From Jiangella asiatica (GTDB lineage: Bacteria; Actinomycetota; Actinomycetes; Jiangellales; Jiangellaceae): a stretch of 64,000 bases of DNA. The first letter of the stretch is position 1. Every line of letters begins with the position of its first letter. A model generated the notes under the pieces. It made no database searches. It was given only the letters and a program-made list of their open reading frames with translations, and was not told the DNA's origin. The translations under genes and the position numbers were made by a program. Positions 3,951 to 36,271 of this stretch are shown one piece after another. The stretch spans positions 62,001-126,000 of the forward strand of contig NZ_SMKZ01000011.1 of assembly GCF_004349065.1 (NCBI RefSeq), written 5' to 3'.

Positions 3951-5195
3951 TCAGATCGGGGCCGGCGACGCGGCGCTCGGTGTGTCCAGTGGTGCCCGGA
4001 AGAACTCGCGCAGCGCCAGCGTGGCCGCGCCGACCACTGGTGCGTCGCGTACCGCGGCGGACCTGATCTCCACGGCGTCGCGCACCGCCGGAAACACGCG
4101 GCGGTCCACCTCGGCGCGGACCCGGTCGATCAGGGCGTCTCCGGCTCGGGCCAGTTCACGGCCCAGGAGGATCAGTTGTGGGTCGACGGCGTAGATGATG
4201 TTGATGATTCCGGCCGCGAGATAGCGCGCGACGTCGTCGAAGACGGCGGTCGCCACCTCGTCGCCGGCATCCAGCGCTGCGATGACCGCATCGATGGTCA
4301 GCCCCGTCTCCGTATGCAGGACCGACGAGGGGGTTGCTGCGAGCCTCGACCGGACCGCGTCGAGGATGCGCGGAACGGCGGCGTACACCTCCAGGCACCC
4401 GAAGTTGCCGCACGCGCACCGTGGTCCATCGAGACGCACGCTCATGTGACCCACCTCCCCGGCCAGGCCGTGGTCGCCGTGGTGCAGGTCACCGCCGAGA
4501 ACGAGACCGGAACCGATACCGGTGCCCAGAGTGAGCAGGACGAAGTCGTCGACCCCCTGGCCGGCACCGAACCACAGCTCCGCCAGGGCGCCCGTGTTCG
4601 CGTTGTTGTCGTAGTGGGTGGGCAGGCCGATCTGCCGCTCGAGCTCCGTCACGAGGTCGAGGTCCTGCCAGACGTCGCGTGATCGGGGCGACAAGCTCCG
4701 CCGCGCGCGGATGTCGACCGGGCCGACGATGCCGACGCCGACGCCGACGACCCGGTCTCGCTCGTCGCGCGGCAGCTCCGAGACGAGCCGCTGGGCGATC
4801 CGGAGGGCGGCCGACTGCGAGACCTCGCCCTCCCAGGGATCGGGGACCGGTTCACTCAGCTGATGGAGCGGCTGCCCGGACAGGTCGACGACGGCGCCGG
4901 TGACCGCGTTGCGTGCGATGTCGAGGCCGATGGCGTAACGGGCCGACGGAACGACCTCCAGATCGACCGCGCGACGACCGGCCCGCGTCGAGGCCTGGAA
5001 GCCCGACTCATGGGCGAGACCGCTCTCGATCAGCTCGTCGACGATGTTGGAGACCGTGCCGGGATTCAACCCGGTCCGCCGCGCCAGGTCGATCCTGGCG
5101 ATGGGCCCGAGCGCATGGATGGCCCGGAAGATCACCGCCCGGTTGCCCTGCTTGACGCTGCGGTGGTTGGCGCCCGCATAGCCGCTGGTTCCCAT
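3951..5195 (-). CDS. ROK family transcriptional repressor
   Basis: A 414-residue ROK regulator (NagC/XylR type). A winged HTH lies at about residues 12-75 (LARRTGLNPGTVSNIVDELIESG), followed by the actin-like sugar-kinase fold (AIGLDIARNAVTGAVVDLSG) and the zinc-type motif GPRCACGNFGCLEVYA. GHMSVRLDG precedes it, as in family members. It is the first gene of the leftward operon and divergent from the polysaccharide operon at 5302. The ligand is probably a breakdown sugar of the substrate. The likely operator is the AT-rich inverted repeat at 5261-5285 in the intergenic region. Confidence 0.92.
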   Translation of the reverse strand: MGTSGYAGANHRSVKQGNRAVIFRAIHALGPIARIDLARRTGLNPGTVSNIVDELIESGLAHESGFQASTRAGRRAVDLEVVPSARYAIGLDIARNAVTGAVVDLSGQPLHQLSEPVPDPWEGEVSQSAALRIAQRLVSELPRDERDRVVGVGVGIVGPVDIRARRSLSPRSRDVWQDLDLVTELERQIGLPTHYDNNANTGALAELWFGAGQGVDDFVLLTLGTGIGSGLVLGGDLHHGDHGLAGEVGHMSVRLDGPRCACGNFGCLEVYAAVPRILDAVRSRLAATPSSVLHTETGLTIDAVIAALDAGDEVATAVFDDVARYLAAGIINIIYAVDPQLILLGRELARAGDALIDRVRAEVDRRVFPAVRDAVEIRSAAVRDAPVVGAATLALREFFRAPLDTPSAASPAPI

Positions 5196-5219
5196 GATGA
5201 TGCCGAAGACCTCTCACCC

Positions 5220-5249
5220 TTGACACGCCTGTTCGTGGCTCAGTACAGT
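5220..5249 (+). promoter_or_regulatory. sigma70-like promoter of the rightward polysaccharide operon
   Basis: A perfect TTGACA (5220-5225) is followed after 18 bp by TACAGT (5244-5249, 4 of 6 to consensus). The predicted start is near 5256, leaving a leader of about 45 nt before the GTG at 5302. It faces the GH43-like gene. Confidence 0.55.
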
Positions 5250-5260
5250 ACGGCACTCCA

Positions 5261-5285
5261 TAATAATTGAAACAAACAATAAATC
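5261..5285. promoter_or_regulatory. candidate ROK operator (AT-rich imperfect inverted repeat)
   Basis: A 25-bp island that is almost free of G and C in a very GC-rich genome. It contains ATTG-N7-CAAT (5266-5280), with 6 of 9 positions matching when the arms are extended, and an internal TTGAAACAA. It lies immediately downstream of the predicted transcription start and just before the ribosome binding site. A bound repressor there would block the start of transcription. NagC/Mlc-type ROK proteins are known to bind A/T-rich palindromes. The assignment is inference. Confidence 0.45.
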
Positions 5286-5293
5286 AAAGGAGG
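5286..5293 (+). promoter_or_regulatory. consensus ribosome binding site that sets the GTG start at 5302
   Basis: AAAGGAGG, a near-perfect match to the anti-Shine-Dalgarno sequence, sits 8 nt before the GTG. This fixes the start of the first gene of the operon. Confidence 0.7.
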
Positions 5294-5301
5294 AGGCGTC
5301 A

Positions 5302-6339
5302 GTGTCCCACGGCACGTCCGGTGTGACAAGCCAGCAAGCGGCGCGCGGACAGGTGAACCGCGATCTCTCGAGCCGTGGCTATCTCCTGCGCGTGCCTACC
5401 CAGCCGCCGTTCGACCCCGAGCGAGGCACGACCGTGGTGGAGCCGCTCGGCTCCGGGCCCGGCTGGTGGGCGGGCGCGCCCAGCGCGCTCTGGAGCGGCG
5501 GACGCTTCTACCTGAGCTACCGGCTGCGCCGGCCGCGGCCGGAGAGAGGCGGTTCGACCCACATCGCGGTGAGCGACGACGGTGTGCGATTCGAGACGAT
5601 CTGGACCGCGCAGAAGGAGGAGTTCGACACCCCGTCCATCGAACGATCCGCACTGGTCCATGTCGCCGACCGGCACTGGCGGCTCTACGTCAGCTACGTG
5701 GACGCGGCCGACGGGCGCTGGCGGATCGACCTGCTCGAAGGCGCGGCGCCGGACAGGTTCGACCCGCGGCAGCGGCGCCCCGTACTCACCGCGGCCGACA
5801 TCGGGGCCGAGGGCGTCAAAGACCCTTGGGTGGCCCGTCGCGACGGCGGCTGGCAGCTGCTCGCGTCCTACGTCGACGCCCCTCCCCACGGCACCGGTGA
5901 CCGCAGCGATCTGCACGGCACCATGGACGTGTTCACCACCGGTCTGACGACGTCGTCGACGGGTATCGCCACCAGCGACGACGGCCTGACCTGGCGCTGG
6001 GCTGGCGCCGTGCTGACCCCGTCGGCAGGCGGATGGGACAGCTATACGGCGCGTCTCACCAGCGTCGTCGCCACCGCCGACGGTTGGCTCGGCTTCTACG
6101 ACGGGTGCGGCGGCGTCGAGCAGAACTACGAAGAACGTTGCGGTCTGGTCATCGGTGACGGAGCGGACCACTGGAGCCGGGCCAGCGCCCGACCCGCCGT
6201 CGGTGCGCCGGGCGGGACGGGAACGGTGCGCTACGTCGAAGCCGTCCAGACCACCGCGTGGATCCGGTTCTTCTACGAGTTCACCCGCCCGGACGGCTCC
6301 CACGAGCTGCGGACCTCGCTGCGAGAGACCAGGCCATGA
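5302..6339 (+). CDS. GH43-like five-bladed beta-propeller protein (putative glycosidase)
   Basis: 345 residues, GTG start fixed by AAAGGAGG. Repeated blade motifs can be seen: PSALWSGGRFYLSYRLRRP, STHIAVSDDGVRFE, WRLYVSYVDAADGRWRID and EGVKDPWV. This suits the GH43/GH117/GH130-like propeller fold, but I cannot assign a family number or catalytic acids with confidence. It has no signal peptide, so it should act in the cytosol on imported oligosaccharides. The gene at 39885-40871 is a clear paralogue that shares LYVSYVD-AD-RWRID, EGVKDP and YDG...NYEER. It is the first gene of the operon, and its stop overlaps the next start by 4 bp. Confidence 0.75.
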   Translation: MSHGTSGVTSQQAARGQVNRDLSSRGYLLRVPTQPPFDPERGTTVVEPLGSGPGWWAGAPSALWSGGRFYLSYRLRRPRPERGGSTHIAVSDDGVRFETIWTAQKEEFDTPSIERSALVHVADRHWRLYVSYVDAADGRWRIDLLEGAAPDRFDPRQRRPVLTAADIGAEGVKDPWVARRDGGWQLLASYVDAPPHGTGDRSDLHGTMDVFTTGLTTSSTGIATSDDGLTWRWAGAVLTPSAGGWDSYTARLTSVVATADGWLGFYDGCGGVEQNYEERCGLVIGDGADHWSRASARPAVGAPGGTGTVRYVEAVQTTAWIRFFYEFTRPDGSHELRTSLRETRP

Positions 6340-25383: not shown

Positions 25384-26169
25384 TCAGCGGCGGGCGACGA
25401 CGAGCCAGGCGCGGGCGTCGAAGATCACGCCCTCCGGGGTCGCGTGCGCGGCCAGCTGCGCACGCAGGCGCTCCCGGGCGCGTTCGAGATCGGCACCGGC
25501 GAACCGGCCGAGGGCCCTGCGCGGATCCCGCAGTTGCAACACCGCGTCGAACGCCGCGTCGACGTCCGCGCCGTACCAGACCGGTCGCGACAACTCCGAG
25601 AACTCGACGTCGCCGAAGCCCGCTGACTCCAGCAGCGAGCGGGTCGACACACGATCGGCGAGAGAGAACGGGCCGTCGTCACTGGGTGCCGGACCCGCGC
25701 CGCTCAGGATGGCGTCGATCAGCGGACCCGACCACTCGTTGGCGGCGCGTTCGCGCCAGACGGTCATCACAAGGCGGCCGCCGGGTCTGGTCGCCCGCGC
25801 GAGATTCGTGAACGCCACCACGGGTTCGGCGAAGAACATCGTCCCAAACCGGCTCATCACCACGTCGAAATCCGCATCGGGGAACGGGTGCGCCTGCGCG
25901 TCCGCGACGTCGAACGCGACGTTGCGCAAGCCCTCGAGATCGGCGAGCTCGCGCGCCTGCTCGATCCGCGTCCGCGAGAGGTCGACGCCGATCACGAAAC
26001 CGTCGGTCGCGATCCTGGCCGCGTCGCGAGTGGGGCGACCGCTGCCGCAGCCGACGTCGAGCACCCGATCCCCTTTCCGGATGCCGAGCGCGGCACGGAA
26101 GAGCGGGTCGAGATGACGCATTTCACCGTCGTAGTCGAAGGCCACGGCGTCGACGCTAGCGAGGTTCAC
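25384..26169 (-). CDS. class I SAM-dependent methyltransferase
   Basis: 261 residues. Motif I is VLDVGCGSGRPTRDAA, the acidic end of the second strand is in IGVDLSRTRIEQA, and motif II/III includes DVVMSRFGTMFF. This resembles UbiE/Methyltransf_11-type enzymes. The substrate is not visible. The gap before the beta-lactamase-like gene (25191-25383) holds only a short open frame (MSPGQFDDLVGRAKRGDLDG to a stop at 25268) that I cannot identify. Confidence 0.88.
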   Translation of the reverse strand: MNLASVDAVAFDYDGEMRHLDPLFRAALGIRKGDRVLDVGCGSGRPTRDAARIATDGFVIGVDLSRTRIEQARELADLEGLRNVAFDVADAQAHPFPDADFDVVMSRFGTMFFAEPVVAFTNLARATRPGGRLVMTVWRERAANEWSGPLIDAILSGAGPAPSDDGPFSLADRVSTRSLLESAGFGDVEFSELSRPVWYGADVDAAFDAVLQLRDPRRALGRFAGADLERARERLRAQLAAHATPEGVIFDARAWLVVARR

Positions 26170-26278
26170 GCGACGGGGCCATCGCCCGGCGGCATGCCTA
26201 CCTCAGGCCGTCTCGCCGTGACGCAACCAGCGATGACCGGGGGTCGCGAGAGAGAACCAGTGGTTGAACTGCGTCGTG

Positions 26279-26392
26279 ATGGGTCAGTGTCTCACCGTGC
26301 CCATCGGCACCGGCGACGACGGGATGCCCGGTGCCGTGCAGATCGTCGGGCCGAGGTTCGGCGAGTCGGCGGTCTACCGCGCCGGCGCCGTC
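26279..26392 (+). pseudogene. C-terminal remnant of an amidase-signature enzyme
   Basis: About 38 codons in frame match the conserved end of amidases: a TVPIG strand, then DGMPGAVQIVGPRFGES and YRAGAV. There is no start, no nucleophile or Ser-Ser-Lys region, and the frame runs straight into the 3' end of the sigma gene on the other strand. This is a fragment left by deletion or rearrangement. The 221-bp gap around it (26170-26390) contains nothing else that I recognise. Confidence 0.5.
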
Positions 26393-27284
26393 AGTCCAGG
26401 TCGGGGATCCGTCCGAGCTTGTCCGGGTTGCGCACCCCGTCGATCGCGGTGATCCGCCCGGCGTCGACCGTGAACGCGATGACCGTCACCACGCCGTCGT
26501 CCCCGTTGCGGATCACCAGTCCCGGAGCGCCGTTGACGTCGACGGGACGCGCGTCGAACGGGTCTTGGCCGTAGTGGACCAGCGCGGAGGCCACCCGGCC
26601 AGCTCCTCGCACGATGCGCGGCAGGGTGGCGACCTTGCCGCCCCCGTCGCTGCGCAGTACGACGTCCGGGTCGAGCAGCGCGATGAGCCCGGGGAGGTCG
26701 CCGGCCTCGCAGGCGGCCGTGAACGCCTCGACCAGATCCCGCTGCTCAGCTGCCGTGGCCGGCGTCCGCGGTCGGCCGTCCTCGACGTGCCGGCGTGCCC
26801 GTGAGGCGAGCTGGCGTACCGCCGTCGGCGTGCGGCCGACGACCTCGGCGATCTCGGGGAAGGGGACGCCGAAGACGTCGTGCAGCACGAACGCGGTGCG
26901 CTCGGCGGGCGAGAGCTGCTCCAGGACGACGAGCAGCGCCATGCTCACCGACTCGTCCAACGTCACCCGCTCGGCCGGGTCGTGCGACCGGGCCTCCACC
27001 AGTGGTTCGGGCAGCCACGTTCCGACGTACTGTTCCCGGCGCGCCCGCGCGCTGCCCAGGGCGTCGAGCGCCAGCCTGCTGACCGTCGTCGTCAGCCAGG
27101 CGGCGAGATCGCGGATCGTACCCGGGTCGTCCAGGCCCCGCAGCCGCAGCCACGCCTCCTGCACGCAGTCCTCGGCATCGATCAGCGAACCCGTGGTGGC
27201 GTAGGCCACCCGCAGCAGCCGCGACCGGTTGGCTTCGAACGCCCGCGCCAGCGACTCCTCCGCGTCCCGCACTCCCCTACCCAT
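26391..27284 (-). CDS. ECF41-group RNA polymerase sigma factor with SnoaL-like C-terminal domain
   Basis: 297 residues. Sigma-2 (about 10-75) and sigma-4 (about 110-165, FPEIAEVVGRTPTAVRQLASRARR) are followed by a SnoaL-like extension of about 120 residues. All three ECF41 marks are present: WLPEPL in the linker, DGGGK in the extension, and NPDKL close to the C-terminus. In this group the extension acts as a fused anti-sigma or sensor. I chose the ATG at 27284. It lies 8 nt after the -10 box of an ECF41-type promoter, so the mRNA would be essentially leaderless. It is divergent from an MMPL transporter under a twin promoter. Confidence 0.93.
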   Translation of the reverse strand: MGRGVRDAEESLARAFEANRSRLLRVAYATTGSLIDAEDCVQEAWLRLRGLDDPGTIRDLAAWLTTTVSRLALDALGSARARREQYVGTWLPEPLVEARSHDPAERVTLDESVSMALLVVLEQLSPAERTAFVLHDVFGVPFPEIAEVVGRTPTAVRQLASRARRHVEDGRPRTPATAAEQRDLVEAFTAACEAGDLPGLIALLDPDVVLRSDGGGKVATLPRIVRGAGRVASALVHYGQDPFDARPVDVNGAPGLVIRNGDDGVVTVIAFTVDAGRITAIDGVRNPDKLGRIPDLD

Positions 27285-27292
27285 GCCCTGTT

Positions 27293-27319
27293 GACGACGT
27301 AGCCCGTCCCGGTGTGACA
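27293..27319 (-). promoter_or_regulatory. ECF41-type promoter of the sigma gene (autoregulation)
   Basis: On the minus strand TGTCACA (27319-27313), a 16-bp spacer and CGTC (27296-27293) match the published ECF41 consensus TGTCACA-N16-CGTC exactly. The start codon at 27284 lies only 8 nt downstream of the -10 box. Confidence 0.8.
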
Positions 27320-27342
27320 CGGCCGCCTCCCGGCGAGGTCGA

Positions 27343-27369
27343 TGTCACACCCCGTCAGGCTACGTCGTC
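27343..27369 (+). promoter_or_regulatory. ECF41-type promoter of the MMPL transporter gene
   Basis: TGTCACA (27343-27349), a 16-bp spacer and CGTC (27366-27369) form a mirror copy of the sigma promoter. The block 27358-27377 is a perfect 20-bp inverted repeat of 27285-27304, so conservation extends past the -10 box. The leader to the ATG at 27430 is about 55 nt. Confidence 0.8.
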
Positions 27370-27429
27370 AACAGGGCGCGGAGGCTCGGCCGCCCCGTGA
27401 CGCCCGACAACCTTTCCGGGGAAGAGACC

Positions 27430-29604
27430 ATGACTTTCACAGAGCTGAACCGAGGAGAGAGCACACGATCGGACCTGCCTCCGGGCGGGGTGTTCGCTCG
27501 CGTCGCCGGCTTCGCCCACCGCCGCCGATGGCTCGGCCTCCTCCTGTGGGTCGCCGTGCTGGCCGGCGTCTGGACCGCTGCCTCGGTCGCCGGCGACGAC
27601 TACCGCAACGACTTCTCCCTCCCGGGCACAGAGTCCCAGCAGGCGGCCGACCTGCTGGCCGAGCACGGCGCCGCCCGCGCCGGTGACACCGTCCAGATCG
27701 TCCTGCACGACGACGGCGGCCTACGCGAGCCCGGCGTCGAGCAGCGCGTGGAGGACATGCTCGACGAGATCGCCGGCCTGCCCAGGGTCGACGGCGTCCG
27801 CAGCCTGTACGACGACGAGGCCGCCATCTCCGAGGACGGCACGATCGGCTACGCCACGGTGATGCTCGACACTCCGTCGGACGACATGCCGAGGGCTGAC
27901 ACCGAGCGCATCCTGGACGCCGCCCAGGAAGTCGAGGGCGACGGGCTCCGCGTCGAGCTGGGCGGCGACGCGGCCCGCCTGCTGGCCGAGGGCGGGACCG
28001 GCGCCGCCGAGGGCGCGGGCCTGCTGGCCGCGCTGGTCATCCTGGTCCTGATGTTCGGCACGGTCATTGCCGCCGGGCTGCCCATCATCATCGCGCTGTT
28101 CGCGGTCGGGTCCACCGTCGGTGTCATCATCGTGGCGTCGCACGTCTTCACGATCGCCGAGTGGACTCCGCCGATCATGATCCTGGTCGGCCTGGGCGTG
28201 GGCATCGACTACGCACTGCTGATCTTCGCCCGGTACCGTGCCGAGCTCGTGCGGGGCAGCGAGCCGGAGCGCGCCACCGTCAATGCGATGGACGCCGCCG
28301 GCCGTTCGGTGTTCTTCGCCGGCTGCACCGTCATCCTGGCGCTGCTCGGTCTCGTCGCCCTCGGCCTGGGCTCGCTGCAGGGCATGGCGCTGTCCGTCGC
28401 GCTGACCGTGCTGGTCACCATGCTCGCCTCCCTCACCCTGCTGCCCGCCCTGCTCGGCATCTTCGGCAGCCGCTTCGCCCGCCAGTTCACCCGCCGAGCC
28501 GAGCGGCGCACGGCCAAGGGCAAGGCCGCTGACGGCACTCGCTGGCGCCGGCTCGCGGCCGTGGTGCAGCGGCGTCCGCTGGCGGCCCTGCTGGCCGGGA
28601 CGATCCTCGTCGGCGCCCTCGCCGTCTCTGCGTTGGGCGTGCGGCTCGGCTTCTCCGACGCGGGCAGCGACCCGGCCGACAGCACCGGCCGGCAAGCCTA
28701 CGACCTGCTCTCCGAAGGGTTCGGCCCAGGGTTCAACGGCCCGCTGCTGGTGGTGACCGACGGCGGCGAGCAGGCCGGCGCCGCGGCCGCCACGGCGCTC
28801 CGCGACACCCCGGGCGTCCAGGCCGTCGCGGACCCGCTGCCCACACCGGACGGAGAGGCCGCGACGGTCCTCGTCTTCCCCACCTCCGCACCGCAGGACG
28901 AGGAGACCTCCGAGCTCGTGAGCACCCTGCGCGACGACGTGCTGCCGGAGCTGTCCGCGCAGAACGACGCGCAGTACTTGGTCGGCGGGCCCACGGCGGC
29001 GTCCGAGGACTACTCCGGCAAGGTCGGTGAACGCATGCCGCTGTTCATGGCCATCGTCGTCGGCCTCTCGGTCCTTCTGCTGATGGCGGTGTTCCGCTCC
29101 GTGCTCATCCCGTTGAAGGCCGCGCTGCTGAACCTGCTCAGCATCGGCGCCGCGCTGGGCGCGATGAAGCTCGTGTACCAGGACGGCTTGTTCGGCATCG
29201 AGGGCGGCCCGATCGAGGCCTACCTGCCGGTGATGATCTTCGCCATCGTCTTCGGGCTCTCCATGGACTACGAGATCTTCCTGGTCTCCCGGATGCATGA
29301 GGAATGGGTGCGATCGGAGAACAAGGACCCGTCCCACGCCGTACGGGAGGGTCTGGCCCACACCGGCTCGGTGATCACCGCGGCGGGCTCGATCATGATC
29401 GTGATCTTCGGCGCTTTCATGCTCAGTCCGGAACGGTTGCTCCAGCAGACCGGCTTCGGCATGGCGGTGGCGATCTTCGTCGACGCGGTCATCATCCGGT
29501 GCCTGATCGTTCCGGCGGCGATGCAGCTGCTGGGTCGCCGCGCCTGGTGGATGCCGGCACCGCTGCTCCGGCTGCTGCCGAAGGTGGAGCTGGAGCGGCA
29601 CTGA
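27430..29604 (+). CDS. MMPL/RND-family transporter, likely ECF41-controlled
   Basis: 724 residues. One N-terminal helix (about 28-50) and an extracytoplasmic loop are followed by a block of five helices (about 190-350), a second loop and a second helix block (about 535-700). This is the duplicated MMPL layout. Characteristic pieces are GLGVGIDYALLIFARYR and FGLSMDYEIFLVSRMHEEW, which hold the Asp-Tyr pairs of the proton relay. I chose the ATG at 27430 (GGGGAAGAG upstream) over an in-frame start at 27397. It probably exports a lipid or other hydrophobic compound. Regulation by the divergent sigma factor is strongly suggested by the mirror promoter. Confidence 0.9.
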   Translation: MTFTELNRGESTRSDLPPGGVFARVAGFAHRRRWLGLLLWVAVLAGVWTAASVAGDDYRNDFSLPGTESQQAADLLAEHGAARAGDTVQIVLHDDGGLREPGVEQRVEDMLDEIAGLPRVDGVRSLYDDEAAISEDGTIGYATVMLDTPSDDMPRADTERILDAAQEVEGDGLRVELGGDAARLLAEGGTGAAEGAGLLAALVILVLMFGTVIAAGLPIIIALFAVGSTVGVIIVASHVFTIAEWTPPIMILVGLGVGIDYALLIFARYRAELVRGSEPERATVNAMDAAGRSVFFAGCTVILALLGLVALGLGSLQGMALSVALTVLVTMLASLTLLPALLGIFGSRFARQFTRRAERRTAKGKAADGTRWRRLAAVVQRRPLAALLAGTILVGALAVSALGVRLGFSDAGSDPADSTGRQAYDLLSEGFGPGFNGPLLVVTDGGEQAGAAAATALRDTPGVQAVADPLPTPDGEAATVLVFPTSAPQDEETSELVSTLRDDVLPELSAQNDAQYLVGGPTAASEDYSGKVGERMPLFMAIVVGLSVLLLMAVFRSVLIPLKAALLNLLSIGAALGAMKLVYQDGLFGIEGGPIEAYLPVMIFAIVFGLSMDYEIFLVSRMHEEWVRSENKDPSHAVREGLAHTGSVITAAGSIMIVIFGAFMLSPERLLQQTGFGMAVAIFVDAVIIRCLIVPAAMQLLGRRAWWMPAPLLRLLPKVELERH

Positions 29605-29615
29605 GTCAGAGGTTC

Positions 29616-29630
29616 CACCCGCCGCGGGTG
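29616..29630 (+). terminator. weak stem-loop after the MMPL gene
   Basis: CACCCG-CCG-CGGGTG, a 6-bp GC stem 12 nt after the stop and without a T tract. It is a possible terminator. The rest of 29605-29792 shows no gene. Confidence 0.3.
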
Positions 29631-29792
29631 AGGCAGGCAGCCGATCGAGGGCCTACGGTCACAGCATCCGCCGAGTTGAGGGGACGACGATGCTGGGTAG
29701 GCGACGAGGCCGCCGCGAGGAACGCCTACAAGGTGGACGGGAAGGCGCTGCGCGTGCCAGGCGCCGCGCGCCGAGCCTCCGGGCGGGCGGTG

Positions 29793-30440
29793 TCATGATG
29801 CGTCGAAGCCGGACAGCAGCGCGTCGAGGGCGACGGTGAACCGGGTGGTGGCGTCGACGGCGCCGTCGTCGCTGAGGGCTTCGGCCATCAGGGGGTAGAG
29901 CTCCCGGTCGACGGCGTCGGCGGTGGTGGCGGCGTTCGGGGTGTCCCGCGTCCCGCTCGGTCGTGCCGTCGCCTCGACGAGGGCGTGCCCGAGCACGAAC
30001 CCGGTGACGGCGTGGACGATCTGCAGGCCACGGCGCGGGGGGAAGCCCGCCGCCTGCAGCGAGACGAGCACTGCCTCGGTGGTCGCCAGGTTGCGGGTCG
30101 TCATGGCCGGCTGGGTGACCAGGAGCGGGATCACGTTCGGGTGGGCCGTCAGCGTGGCGTACAGCGATCCGGCGAACTCGCGCAGCGTCGCCCGCCAGGA
30201 TGCGCCGGCCGGGTGCGGTGGCGCCGTCTCGGCGATGATGTGCTCGACGACGCCGTCCAGCAAGGCGGTCTTGTTCGGAACGTAGTGGTAGAGGGTCATC
30301 GCCTCGACGTCGAGCTCGGCGGCGATCTGACGCATCGTCAGCGCCCCCGGTCCGTCGCGGTCGGCCAGCCGTATCGCGGCCCGCAGGATGGCCGATCTGG
30401 TGAGTCCCACGCGTTGCCCGCGGCCTCGGCTCGGCGTCAC
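29793..30440 (-). CDS. TetR-family repressor (TetR_C-type ligand domain)
   Basis: 215 residues from the GTG at 30440, which has GGAAGGAG just upstream. The HTH is ALTMRQIAAELDVEAMTLYHYVPNKTALLDGV (about residues 37-70), and the C-terminal helices are typical of TetR-class C domains. The frame extends upstream to 30629, but that part lies over the operators and looks non-coding. It is divergent from the small membrane protein at 30557 and very likely represses it and itself through the two operator copies at 30469-30512. Confidence 0.88.
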   Translation of the reverse strand: MTPSRGRGQRVGLTRSAILRAAIRLADRDGPGALTMRQIAAELDVEAMTLYHYVPNKTALLDGVVEHIIAETAPPHPAGASWRATLREFAGSLYATLTAHPNVIPLLVTQPAMTTRNLATTEAVLVSLQAAGFPPRRGLQIVHAVTGFVLGHALVEATARPSGTRDTPNAATTADAVDRELYPLMAEALSDDGAVDATTRFTVALDALLSGFDAS

Positions 30441-31922: not shown

Positions 31923-32159
31923 CCTCGCGAGGCGAGTCCCTGCAGGCGTACCGGAAGACGACCACCCTTTCTGACCACGACCACTCCTCACCCGAAGCCC
32001 GCCGCGCCTACCATGAACCGCACGGCCGCACCGGCTGAAAGCGACGCGACGGTGCGACGACCGGTGTACGCCGGCGGGAGTAGCCCGGCTCGCCGAAGCA
32101 CCCCGGTTACTCCTCGGGCCGGACGCGGCAGCCCCACCGCTGCGGCGAGGGTCGAGAGC

Positions 32160-34334
32160 ATGAATCTCAGGCGACCCGGTGACCAACCCGGGCCTCACCC
32201 CGCTCCCCCTGTCGTCGGCCCGATCATGCGAGTCCTGCGGGCCCTGCACGCCCAGCCGCGCCGCGCCCTCGTGGGTGTGTTCCTCTTCGTCGTCGCGGCC
32301 GGAGCGATCGGCGGTCCCGTCGCGGGTGCGCTCGACTCCGACGGCGGCTTCGCTCCACCGGGCGCCGGCTCGGTGCGCGCGGTCGAACGGATCGAAGCGG
32401 CCACCGGCCTCGAACCCTCACCCGGAATCGTGCTCCTGGTCCAGACACCACCCGGCACGGGCGCGGCGGCGGTGGACGCGGCCACGTCGACCCTGGCCGA
32501 CGTCGACGGCATCGCTTCGGCCGCCGCAGGGGGCGCCGCACCCGACGGCACCTCGGCGCTGGTCGTCGGCACCCTCGAGGCCGCGGCGGACAGCCAGAGC
32601 GTTGCCGAGGACGCCGTCGAGGTCTTCGCCGACGACCCCGGCGTGACGGTCGGCGGCGGCGCGGTCGCCGGCCTCCGACTCGGCCATCAGATCGAGGAGG
32701 ACCTGGTCCGCGCGGAGATCTTCGCGTTCCCGGTGCTGGTGCTCCTGTCGCTGCTCGTCTTCGGCGGCCGCGCCGCCGTTCTGCCGCTCACCGTCGGCAT
32801 CACCACCGTCCTCGGCACGTTCCTGGCGCTGACCGGGATCAACCAGGTGTACGGGCTCAGCGCCTTCGCGCTCAACCTCGTGATCGGGCTCGGCCTCGGT
32901 CTGGCGATCGACTACACGCTGTTCCTGCTCACGCGCTACCGAGAGGAACTGAACCGGCAGGGGCCGACGTTGGGCGCCATGGTCACCACGATGCGCACCG
33001 CGGGCCGCACGGTGGTGTTCTCCGCGGCGACCGTCGCCGTCGCCCTGGCCACTCTCGTCGCCTTCCCCATGGGTTTCCTCAAGTCGATGGGTCTGTCCGG
33101 TGCCGTCGTCGCGGTCGTCGCGGCCGCGGCCGCCCTGGTCGTCAGCCCGATCGTCTTCGGGCTCTGGGGTGCCAAGCTGGCCCGCCGCGGCGGCGACGCG
33201 GCCGCGGGCCGCTGGTACCGGATCTCGCACGCCGTCATGCGTCGTCCGGGCATGGTCGCCGTGACGACCGCCGCCATGATGGCCGTGCTCGCCGCCCCGG
33301 CTCTGCGCGCCGAGTGGACGCCGGTCGACGCGACCGTCGTCCCGCTGGGCGAGAGCGCCCGCGTCGTGTCCGACGCCATCGAGAGCGAGTACGGCGGCAC
33401 CGGCACCACCCCCGTCACCATCGCCGTCGCGGCGAGCGACGCCGGCGAGGCAGCCGACGGTGCCGCCGACCTCGCCCGGCAGGCCTCGTCCCTGCCCGGC
33501 GTCGTCGCGCCCGCCGATCCCGTGGACCTCGGTGGCGGCGTCTGGCAGGTCGACCTCGAGGTCGCCGGGGACCCGGCCGGCGAGGACGCCCGCGCCGTCG
33601 TCGCGGACGTCCGCGACCTGGCCGAGGCGAACGGCACCGACGCGCTCGTCGCCGGCCCGGCCGCGGAGTTCATCGACCAGCAGAACGCGATCGCCGACAG
33701 CCTCCCGGTGGCCGCCGGGCTGCTCGTGCTGCTCACGATGCTGGTGCTGTGGCTGATGACGGGATCGGTCGTGCTGCCGGTCAAGGCGGTCGTGATGAAC
33801 GCCCTCACCGTCGGCGTCGCCCTCGGTGCCATCACCTGGGTCTACCAGGACGGCCGGTTCACCGAGCTGCTCGGCTACACATCCAACGGCGGCATCGAGC
33901 CCACGAACTTCCTGATCACGGCGGCGCTCGTCTTCGCCCTCTCCACCGACTACGGCGTCTTCCTGCTCGGCCGGATCAAGGAGGCCAGGGAAGCGGGACT
34001 CCCCGAGCGGGAGGCGGTCGCGGTCGGGCTCGGCCGAACCGGCAGCGTCGTCACCGCCGCGGCGCTGCTGCTGGCGGTCGCGATCGGGGCGTTCAGCACC
34101 AGCGAGATCTCCTTCCTCCAGCAGATCGGCGTCGCGACCGCGATCGGCGTCCTGGTCGACGCGTTCCTCGTCCGCACCCTTCTCGTCCCGGCGCTGATGG
34201 GTCTGATGGGCAAGTGGAACTGGTGGGCGCCGATGTGGCTGCGGCGGGTGCACGACAAGGTCGGTCTGTCGGAGCGCGAGGCGGTCGCGGTCGAGCCGGC
34301 GAAGGAGCCGGCCACGAGCCCTGACCGGGTCTAG
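32160..34334 (+). CDS. MMPL/RND-family transporter
   Basis: 724 residues from the ATG at 32160. The layout is the duplicated MMPL arrangement with GLGLGLAIDYTLFLLTRYREEL in the first half and FALSTDYGVFLLGRIKEA in the second (Asp-Tyr pairs). The extracytoplasmic loops are very rich in Ala, Val and Asp. The ATG at 32226 is an alternative start; the frame is open to 32013, but that region reads as non-coding. Substrate unknown. It is only distantly related to the MMPL at 27430. The 237-bp gap before it (31923-32159) holds no other feature. Confidence 0.88.
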   Translation: MNLRRPGDQPGPHPAPPVVGPIMRVLRALHAQPRRALVGVFLFVVAAGAIGGPVAGALDSDGGFAPPGAGSVRAVERIEAATGLEPSPGIVLLVQTPPGTGAAAVDAATSTLADVDGIASAAAGGAAPDGTSALVVGTLEAAADSQSVAEDAVEVFADDPGVTVGGGAVAGLRLGHQIEEDLVRAEIFAFPVLVLLSLLVFGGRAAVLPLTVGITTVLGTFLALTGINQVYGLSAFALNLVIGLGLGLAIDYTLFLLTRYREELNRQGPTLGAMVTTMRTAGRTVVFSAATVAVALATLVAFPMGFLKSMGLSGAVVAVVAAAAALVVSPIVFGLWGAKLARRGGDAAAGRWYRISHAVMRRPGMVAVTTAAMMAVLAAPALRAEWTPVDATVVPLGESARVVSDAIESEYGGTGTTPVTIAVAASDAGEAADGAADLARQASSLPGVVAPADPVDLGGGVWQVDLEVAGDPAGEDARAVVADVRDLAEANGTDALVAGPAAEFIDQQNAIADSLPVAAGLLVLLTMLVLWLMTGSVVLPVKAVVMNALTVGVALGAITWVYQDGRFTELLGYTSNGGIEPTNFLITAALVFALSTDYGVFLLGRIKEAREAGLPEREAVAVGLGRTGSVVTAAALLLAVAIGAFSTSEISFLQQIGVATAIGVLVDAFLVRTLLVPALMGLMGKWNWWAPMWLRRVHDKVGLSEREAVAVEPAKEPATSPDRV

Positions 34335-34391
34335 ACGTACTCCCCCGGGAGGACGCCGAGCCGGACGCTCGTCATTACCGTAAGGGGCGTG

Positions 34392-35570
34392 GTGACCTCG
34401 CCAGCCCTCCTCCGCCGGCTCCGTGCCGTCCGCGATCACGTCGAGGACGTGGTCGCGGTCGGCCTGTGCGTAGCCCTGATGTGCGTCGAGCTGGCCCGGT
34501 CCGACGAGGCCGAGGTCACCGTCGCCGCCGTGGCCGCGATCGTCGTGGCCTCGCTGCCGGTGCTGCTGCGTCGTCGTGCGCCGGTGTCGGCGTTCGTGCT
34601 CGCGATGGCGCTGCTCTTCGCGGTGCTGACGGTCGCGGGCATCTACGTCACGATCGCGATCCCGGCCATGATCTGTGGCTACGGGCTGGCCGAAGCACGA
34701 GGACGCCGGGCCGCGTTGGGCGCGGCTTTGGCCGCGTTGCCGGTGGTGGTGCTGATGCTGCAGGTCTACAGCCCGCACGGGTATTTCACGAGGGACACCC
34801 TGAAGAACCTCGGCTTCGTCGCCCTTCCGCTCGCGTTGGGCGTCGCCGCGCACGACCGGCGCGCGTACACGGCCGCGCTGGTCGAACGGGCCGAGTCGGC
34901 CGAGCGGACGCGCGAGGAGGAAGCGCTGCGCCGGGTGGGCGAGGAGCGGCTGCGGATCGCGCGCGACGTCCACGACGTCGTCGCCCACGCGATGGTCGCC
35001 ATCAACGTGCAGGCCGGCGTCGGCGCCCACCTCCTCGACCGCGACGCCGAGCAGGCTCGGTCCACCCTGCGCGACATCAAGAGGGTCAGCGGCGAGGCGC
35101 TCGGCGACCTGCGCTCGATGCTCGGGCTGCTCCGCGAGGACGACCACGACCCCGGGTCGGCGGCGCCGGTCCGGCCCACGCAGGGCATGGCCGAGATCGA
35201 GGATCTGCGTGAGGGCCTCGGCTCGGCGGGGGTCGAACTCGACGTCGACCTCGACCCGGCGATCGACACACTGCCGGCCGCCATCGACGCCACCGGCTAC
35301 CGAATCGTCCAGGAGGCGTTGACCAACGTGATGCGCCACGTCGGCCCGACCTCGGCGCGGGTGCGGGTCACGCACCGCGACCACATGGTCGTGATCGAGG
35401 TCGAGAACGACAGGGGCTACGGTCCCACCCCGCTCGACGGCACCGGGTCCGGCAACGGGCTGCGGGGCATGCGCGAGCGGGCCGCCGCGGTCGGCGGCTC
35501 GCTCGAGGCCGGCCCGCGTGCCGGCGGCGGCTGGCGGGTCGCCGCGTCCTTGCCGGTGGGCGCCGCGTGA
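34392..35570 (+). CDS. NarL-type sensor histidine kinase
   Basis: 392 residues. Four to six membrane helices lie in residues 15-150. The HisKA_3 dimerisation domain reads RLRIARDVHDVVAHAMVAINVQAG (phospho-His in VHD), and a HATPase follows (EALTNVMRHVGPTSARVRV; GNGLRGMRERAAAVGG). The GTG at 34392 is 4 nt after AAGGGG, and the adjacent GTG at 34389 is an alternative. It is coupled to the next gene by a GTGA overlap. Confidence 0.9.
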   Translation: MTSPALLRRLRAVRDHVEDVVAVGLCVALMCVELARSDEAEVTVAAVAAIVVASLPVLLRRRAPVSAFVLAMALLFAVLTVAGIYVTIAIPAMICGYGLAEARGRRAALGAALAALPVVVLMLQVYSPHGYFTRDTLKNLGFVALPLALGVAAHDRRAYTAALVERAESAERTREEEALRRVGEERLRIARDVHDVVAHAMVAINVQAGVGAHLLDRDAEQARSTLRDIKRVSGEALGDLRSMLGLLREDDHDPGSAAPVRPTQGMAEIEDLREGLGSAGVELDVDLDPAIDTLPAAIDATGYRIVQEALTNVMRHVGPTSARVRVTHRDHMVVIEVENDRGYGPTPLDGTGSGNGLRGMRERAAAVGGSLEAGPRAGGGWRVAASLPVGAA

Positions 35571-36271
35571 CCGCCGCGATCCGGGTGCTGCTGGTCGACG
35601 ACCAGACGTTGGTGCGCGCGGGGTTCCGGGCACTGCTGAACTCCGAGCCCGACATCGAGGTCGTCGCCGAGGCCGTCGACGGCGCCGAAGCGGTCCGGCT
35701 GGCCGGCATGCTGGTGCCCGACGTGGTGCTGATGGACGTCCGGATGCCCCACGTCGACGGGCTCGAGGCCACCGGCCGGATCACCGCCGACCCACGCCTC
35801 GCCTCCGTCAAGGTGATCGTGCTGACGACGTTCGAGCTCGACGAGTACGTCTTCGGCGCGCTCCGCGCCGGCGCCGCCGGGTTCCTGCTCAAGGACGTCG
35901 AGCCCGAGGCGCTGGTCGACGCCGTCCGGCTGGTGCACGACGGGCAGGCCCTGCTCGCGCCGCGAGTCACCAAGCGGCTGATCGAGGCGTACATCGCCGC
36001 CGACCCCGCGCCCGTCGCCGCTCCCGCCGCGGTCCCGGCGCCGGACGACCGCCGGCTGGACGACCTGACCCCGCGCGAGCGAGAGATCCTCGCACTCGTC
36101 GGGCGGGGTCTGTCCAACCACGAGATCGCCGAGCACCTCGTGCTCTCCCCGCTGACCGCGAAGACCCACGTGTCGCGGCTGTTCCTCAAGCTGGGCGCCC
36201 GCGACCGCGCCCAGCTCGTCGTCACCGCCTATGAGACCGGCCCGGTCACCGCCCCATCGGCAGGCTCCTGA
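35567..36271 (+). CDS. NarL/LuxR-family response regulator
   Basis: 234 residues. The receiver begins RVLLVDDQTLVRAGF, with Asp in VVLMDVRMPHVDG and Lys in FLLKDVEPEAL. A Pro/Ala-rich linker follows, then the LuxR HTH (LTPREREILALVGRGLSNHEIAEHL). The GTG overlaps the kinase stop by 4 bp. A REP-like element lies about 50 bp after its stop. Confidence 0.92.
   Translation: MTAAIRVLLVDDQTLVRAGFRALLNSEPDIEVVAEAVDGAEAVRLAGMLVPDVVLMDVRMPHVDGLEATGRITADPRLASVKVIVLTTFELDEYVFGALRAGAAGFLLKDVEPEALVDAVRLVHDGQALLAPRVTKRLIEAYIAADPAPVAAPAAVPAPDDRRLDDLTPREREILALVGRGLSNHEIAEHLVLSPLTAKTHVSRLFLKLGARDRAQLVVTAYETGPVTAPSAGS

Follow-up and report, generated by a model that had tools for sequence, protein, structure and literature searches.

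Can an ECF41 sigma factor and an MMPL transporter form one regulatory unit, coupled through mirror-image promoters? The question is raised by the region between two divergent genes of Jiangella asiatica, in a stretch of 64,000 nucleotides (64 kb) that was analyzed as a whole (the window). Both strands of positions 27285 to 27377 carry an exact TGTCACA-N16-CGTC motif, the ECF41 promoter consensus, at 27319 to 27293 (minus strand) and at 27343 to 27369 (plus strand), as had been noticed in an initial reading of the letters without database searches (the sequence-only reading). The minus-strand copy precedes the sigma factor gene and the plus-strand copy precedes the MMPL gene. With the spacer widened to 14 to 18 nucleotides, these two were the only matches in the window; the mean expected by chance was 0.41, and two or more copies were found in 8 of 100 shuffles. 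The motif count on its own is weak evidence; what carries weight is that the two copies mirror each other beside an ECF41 gene. The whole genome of J. asiatica (7.03 Mb in 134 contigs) contained seven exact sites including these two, versus one for the reversed control. When a spacer of 18 to 48 was allowed, the mirrored pattern occurred in 3 of 396 genomes of the phylum, J. asiatica included, and the reversed control in none among the matches listed.

An inverted repeat of 35 nucleotides (27285 to 27319 and 27343 to 27377), 89% complementary, contains the two motifs. Its perfect stretches are an outer arm of 20 bp (27285 to 27304 on the minus strand, the last base directly preceding the sigma ATG, and 27358 to 27377 on the plus strand, on the MMPL side) and an inner arm of 9 bp (27311 to 27319 and 27343 to 27351), both as first described. 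The −35 elements are separated by a 23-bp centre (27320 to 27342); in the 11 relatives compared, this centre is 6, 11, 12, 20, or 24 nucleotides long. As a single strand, the repeat folds strongly (−40.4 kcal/mol, z −9.55), which follows from its symmetry and does not imply a function. No Rfam family reached the threshold in 26000 to 30000, and neither a sigma-70-like promoter nor a terminator was found in 27200 to 27480. A motif match alone is not proof of a promoter, because three further predicted ECF41 promoters were inactive in Bacillus licheniformis according to the available part of PMC3426412.

The gene on the left (26391 to 27284, minus strand) encodes a 297-amino-acid sigma factor of the ECF41 or SigJ type with the parts expected of ECF41: sigma2, sigma4, and a SnoaL_2-like C-terminal extension of about 100 amino acids. 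Pfam models found Sigma70_r2 and r4_2, and SnoaL_2 scored 24.1 bits, below its cut-off of 27. The protein passed the SigJ model NF007214 (331.7 bits; cut-off, 271), stayed under the cut-off of the SigX4 model TIGR02957 (302.3 bits; cut-off, 323.25), and aligned with Mycobacterium tuberculosis SigJ (PDB 5xe7) over residues 15 to 291 with an E value of 1.8e-56. It carries both DGGGK and NPDK, which we take, following the sequence-only reading, to be conserved motifs of the ECF41 extension; each was absent from 5 of the 22 sigma sequences compared, all of them outgroups. Neither string of letters occurs in the available text of PMC3426412. WLPEP, given there as an ECF41 motif, was found in the linker between sigma2 and sigma4 in all 22 sequences, including that of the window. 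All three marks by which the gene had first been recognized as an ECF41 sigma factor are thus present. The scanned neighbors comprise MMPL, methyltransferase, beta-lactamase-fold, and TetR-type genes, and no anti-sigma gene was found among them. A further ECF41-like gene of J. asiatica (G000:C77:37640-38515) gave a full-length match with one internal TAG and may be broken.

The gene on the right (27430 to 29604, plus strand) encodes an MMPL-family RND transporter of 724 amino acids (PF03176, E value of 2.2e-92). It has two PF03176 stretches with, in the membrane core, the Asp-Tyr pairs that act in proton relay in MMPL transporters. By sequence, its closest solved relatives are MmpL3 structures (6n40, E value of 8.6e-62), and its pairs, in IDY and MDY, aligned with IDY and TDY of 6n40. 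Against the MmpL3 model, the protein scored 216.6 bits, far under the cut-off of 1400. Its start is most likely the ATG at 27430, behind a leader of about 60 nucleotides. The region 32013 to 36271 of the window holds a second, distant MMPL gene, which shares 26 to 35% identity with the first gene's counterparts in the relatives and is followed, as judged by eye, by histidine-kinase-like and response-regulator-like frames.

The sequence-only reading had proposed a search of related genomes for this pairing and its doubled motif; we searched by protein alone, blind to the motif. Among 99 related genomes, a search with the sigma protein found relatives of 81 to 84% identity in 5 of the 11 other genomes of the genus, two of them J. 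endophytica and J. muralis; all five had a divergent MMPL gene (73 to 80% over the part within the stretch) and two exact motifs. A second sigma search, in 341 genomes of another family (that of G144) at an E value of ≤1e-110, gave 27 loci in 25 genomes. All 12 loci with a sigma protein of at least 75% identity had a divergent MMPL gene (77 to 90%) and two motifs, one per side. Both copies were exact in seven loci; in the other five the MMPL-side copy read CGTCACA, and in one of these the sigma-side copy did too. Five of the 12 were the Actinomadura loci named below found again, and seven were new. The pattern was thus positive in 17/17 divergent relatives found by protein, which carried both motifs within one base, 12 with both exact and 5 one base off; the sigma-side copy was exact in 16 and one base off in 1, and the MMPL-side copy was exact in 12 and one base off in 5.

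The reverse approach started from the motif. When species genomes were scanned for its mirrored form, spacers of 0 to 30 being allowed, at least 119 stretches were obtained. Among the matches listed, an ECF41-like frame read out of the motif within 400 nucleotides in 96 of 119, lay elsewhere in the stretch in 8, and was not found in 15. At least 8 of the 119 listed, in which both motifs are present by construction, had this MMPL gene; they came from Actinophytocola xanthii, Actinomadura madurae, A. rudentiformis, A. meyerae, Actinomadura sp. KC345 and CNU-125, J. muralis, and J. endophytica. When 296 genomes of the class were searched with the MMPL protein, all six matches of at least 76%, its own included, adjoined the sigma gene. 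The divergent pair was found in 19 genomes in total: six belong to the genus of J. asiatica, twelve to that of the named Actinomadura (g136), and one is an Actinophytocola. When 14 window proteins were compared with 14 relative loci, only the sigma factor and the MMPL protein recurred, except that the second MMPL protein of the window distantly matched the same MMPL gene and that a regulator and a kinase had matches of 64% and 43% at one locus (L161). Judged by its conservation, the sigma/MMPL pair with both of its promoter motifs is a real, conserved cassette.

The pair of the window may have arrived from outside the genus. In a tree of both proteins, in which one row (L104) held only part of MMPL, it grouped with A. 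meyerae (support 82/81), apart from the five genus relatives; a single clade with the five was not rejected (p-AU of 0.126 for both proteins and 0.103 for MMPL alone). The window MMPL protein was 80.9 to 85.5% identical to six proteins outside the genus, versus 76.0 to 80.1% to the five inside, and the pair has the Actinomadura layout, with a long centre and a leadered MMPL gene. Layout and identity suggest a horizontal transfer of the pair.

The sigma ATG (27282 to 27284, minus strand) lies 8 nucleotides past CGTC, and the same offset was found in 19/19 divergent loci (16 ATG and 3 GTG). Among 240 different arms of mirrored motifs, with related genomes not collapsed, ATG occurred at offset 8 in 34, versus a mean of 4.7 at offsets 0 to 30 other than 7 to 10; it was also raised at offsets 9 (13 arms), 10 (11 arms), and 2 (19 arms). 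On the sigma sides of the 96 listed loci, again with related genomes not collapsed, the start codon was at offset 8 in 24, versus 0 to 8 at 19 other offsets (3 to 7 and 11 to 24). Because this offset is exact in all 19 sigma genes, the data support a transcript that begins at or beside the start codon, and hence the earlier view that the sigma mRNA is practically leaderless. Only the sigma transcript looks leaderless in the window; the MMPL transcript does not. The MMPL start codon lies 7 to 8 nucleotides past CGTC in the five same-genus relatives, and the MMPL leader is 38 to 200 nucleotides long in six named relatives outside the genus. The leader of about 200 nucleotides in A. rudentiformis (L120, about 5140 to 5340) seems, by eye, to contain repeated GC-rich units.

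The near-identity of the two arms had been read as a sign of a recent duplication or of a shared site for another regulator. We compared the 24 non-motif positions of each arm pair (16 in the spacer and 8 downstream) at 125 loci, two genomes being represented twice. The arms of the window matched at 20/24 positions, the most symmetric of all loci scored; random arm pairs from different loci reached 20/24 in 0.26% of 20,000 draws. At the 12 MMPL loci, arms matched at 12.4/24 positions within a locus versus 12.6/24 between loci, and the MMPL arm of the window matched the sigma arm of A. meyerae at 19/24. Since arms are equally alike within and between these loci, most of the repeat is explained by a shared extended promoter: GGCT-N-CGTCGTCAACAGG would largely be an extended promoter common to both sides in this clade. 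Neither part of the earlier reading is supported. There is no need to assume that the arms were recently duplicated or arose by gene conversion, and a dimeric operator across the dyad is argued against because the centre varies from 6 to 24 nucleotides (6, 11, 12, 20, 23, or 24 at the 12 loci). Over all 125 loci, the match was 9.4/24 within a locus (6.2 of 16 plus 3.1 of 8) versus 7.8/24 between loci (5.4 plus 2.4); this modest excess may reflect lineage effects or some local copying. Given the exceptional symmetry of the window, a local event of a few bases is possible. In the listed stretches (L038 to L156), collapsed by genus and spacing, the distance between the two −35 boxes fell into clusters at 9 to 12 and 20 to 24 nucleotides in 61 of 87, about one DNA helix turn apart, and none was at 14 to 15 or 25. 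A helical phasing of the twin spacing was considered and rejected; the spacing classes had been chosen after inspection of the data, and a search for a third cluster gave too few matches (3/396 genomes).

The association does not depend on the divergent arrangement. Of the 15 remaining loci in the second family, five (L213, L217, L218, L220, and L223) have the MMPL gene directly downstream of the sigma gene on the same strand, 88 to 128 nucleotides beyond the point where the sigma match ends; identities are 65 to 71% for the sigma factor and 65 to 71% for MMPL. These loci have one motif before the sigma gene (three exact and two TGTCACG), and none of that form before the MMPL gene. One genome (G956) has both layouts. 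By these sequence comparisons, the sigma/MMPL link survives a change of gene layout. The link also has limits. The remaining 10 of the 27 loci showed no MMPL gene in the stretch, of which two (L214 and L215) end beside the sigma gene and one (L216) partly does. In 393 genomes of the class, the sigma protein was found at an E value of ≤1e-95 in nine: six were those of the window's genus with MMPL, and the other three (60 to 72%) had no MMPL gene within 1.5 kb. The MMPL protein was found at an E value of ≤1e-160 in 63 of 296 class genomes; at about 44 to 70% identity, none of the 24 MMPL loci examined (L173 to L196) had the sigma gene beside it, and no ECF41 gene was found beside the MMPL paralogues of 60 to 63% that were examined. 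Some of these paralogues adjoin, by eye, a response-regulator-like frame. On plasmids, the best MMPL match was 60%, with no ECF41-like match within 4 kb. In Streptomyces sp. MP131-18 (L127:5280-6783), a sigma factor of 75% identity keeps the mirrored promoter, and a SnoaL-domain gene replaces the MMPL gene.

How would such a cassette work? According to the available part of PMC3426412, ECF41 factors have no anti-sigma neighbors and act on TGTCACA-n16-CGTC promoters; partial removal of the C-terminal extension raises their activity and full removal abolishes it. Bacillus subtilis has no ECF41 factor (PMC3426412). Promoter action and control by the extension are experimental findings in B. licheniformis and Rhodobacter sphaeroides (PMC3426412), and activation is described, in the portions available of PMC8999054 and PMC8103513, as a conformational change that likely involves small molecules. 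We consider it probable that the ECF41 sigma factor and the MMPL pump, with their mirrored promoters, form a self-contained and self-amplifying two-gene efflux cassette, a proposal built on what was directly observed: the two genes, two exact promoters, joint conservation in relatives found blind to the motif, and a fixed start-codon spacing. By analogy with the family, the sigma factor would be held inactive by its own SnoaL-like domain until a signal releases it, and the simplest guess for this signal is a small hydrophobic compound that binds to this domain. To our knowledge, no ECF41 factor has an identified signal. The freed sigma factor would then, again judging from the family, direct RNA polymerase to both mirrored promoters. 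From the sigma-side promoter, more sigma factor would be made from a leaderless mRNA, giving positive feedback, and from the MMPL-side promoter the pump would be made together with its regulator. As a further guess, regarding both the cargo and the negative feedback, the pump may carry the signal molecule itself, or something related to it, out of the cell, which would close the loop. A more specific version, in which the SnoaL-like domain directly binds the substrate of the pump, would unite sensing, transcription, and export in one loop without a repressor, a kinase, or an anti-sigma factor; we put it forward tentatively, as a conjecture that is more likely to be wrong than right.

The best surviving alternative is cross-talk, in which one or more other ECF41 factors of the genome drive or share both promoters. 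The genome has eight ECF41-like genes at an E value of ≤1e-40, the window sigma gene included, and because there are seven further ones, the cognate factor is not proven. Other exact consensus sites of the genome precede epimerase-like and short-chain-dehydrogenase-like frames (by eye) and another ECF41 gene. The pair and its motifs, however, co-occur in different neighborhoods and in two layouts, and we regard cross-talk as unlikely, though worth keeping in mind. Autoregulation could also be the only real part, with MMPL driven mainly by other means and its motif a by-product of the mirrored layout. The MMPL leader in the window and in the six relatives outside the genus, where the sigma gene has none, fits this reading, as does the motif at the 12 second-family loci, one base off in 5/12 on the MMPL side versus 1/12 on the sigma side. 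Yet the MMPL-side arms are conserved between loci (15.6 of 24) like the sigma-side arms (14.9), the MMPL start codon keeps its short distance from CGTC in the five same-genus genomes, MMPL follows the sigma gene on the same strand in five loci, and no sigma-70-like site was found in 27200 to 27480; we therefore hold this reading to be improbable. Least probable of all, and very doubtful, is that the long repeat serves another regulator, such as the TetR-type gene behind MMPL (30629 to 29793), as its operator or as a cruciform, with the ECF41 match secondary: the strong single-strand fold and the presence of that gene speak for it, but no fixed-geometry site is conserved, because the centre (6 to 24 nucleotides) and the arm symmetry (8 to 17 of 24, versus 20 in the window) vary in 11 relatives, and the TetR gene was not found at an E value of ≤1e-15 in 14 relative loci, although the stretches of three of these (L063, L082, and L104) extend no further than MMPL or stop within it, and one (L127) is without MMPL.

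The sigma/MMPL cassette, as the preferred reading, has a partner gene that sets it apart. Published ECF41 partners are COE genes (Wecke et al. 2012, PMC3426412), which are usual and not obligatory: in the available part of that paper, 126 of 373 loci lack one. The partner here is MMPL and not a COE gene. MMPL is absent as a partner from the text examined of PMC3426412, and no report joining ECF41 and MMPL was found in the literature searched. Within these sources, the earlier impression that an MMPL partner is unusual holds. Unlike the generic COE enzymes, an exporter hints at the class of the signal, something worth pumping out and probably hydrophobic, and it offers a simple read-out, because an MMPL deletion could be scored for accumulation or sensitivity. 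Each of the 19 divergent cassettes also contributes two promoters, and together these make up a naturally occurring collection for this sigma clade.

Other partners were seen in passing. At 20 or more loci (L047, L048, L058, L062, L068, and 15 others) of Paraburkholderia, Burkholderia, Massilia, and Herbaspirillum, the mirrored motif has a ClpP-like gene behind it and an ECF41-like gene on the opposite side; the spacer was exactly 20 nucleotides in 17 of the 20 listed, and PF00574 was found in the one scanned (L047). At three loci (L132, L141, and L154), an ABC-transporter ATPase gene is divergent from an ECF41-like gene, with PF00005 found in the one scanned (L132), possibly a second type of exporter partner for ECF41-like genes.

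Three known systems can be set beside the cassette. MmpL3, the trehalose monomycolate exporter (PDB 6n40), belongs to the same MMPL family, and both of its Asp-Tyr pairs align; unlike it, the window protein is far below the MmpL3 model cut-off and adjoins an ECF41 gene. SigJ of M. tuberculosis (PDB 5xe7) shares the sigma subfamily and the domain order over the aligned residues, whereas it has DSNGK where the window sigma factor has DGGGK; no link between SigJ and an MMPL gene was found in the literature searched, some of it available in part. The third comparison is with the ECF41/COE loci, B. licheniformis Ecf41-YdfG and R. sphaeroides Ecf41-RSP_0606, which share the sigma type, the TGTCACA-n16-CGTC promoter, and the lack of an anti-sigma gene. 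The divergent <ECF< >COE> layout was found in 55 of the 373 published loci, as given in the available part of the source, with the motif before the ECF gene in 36 and before the COE gene in 41.
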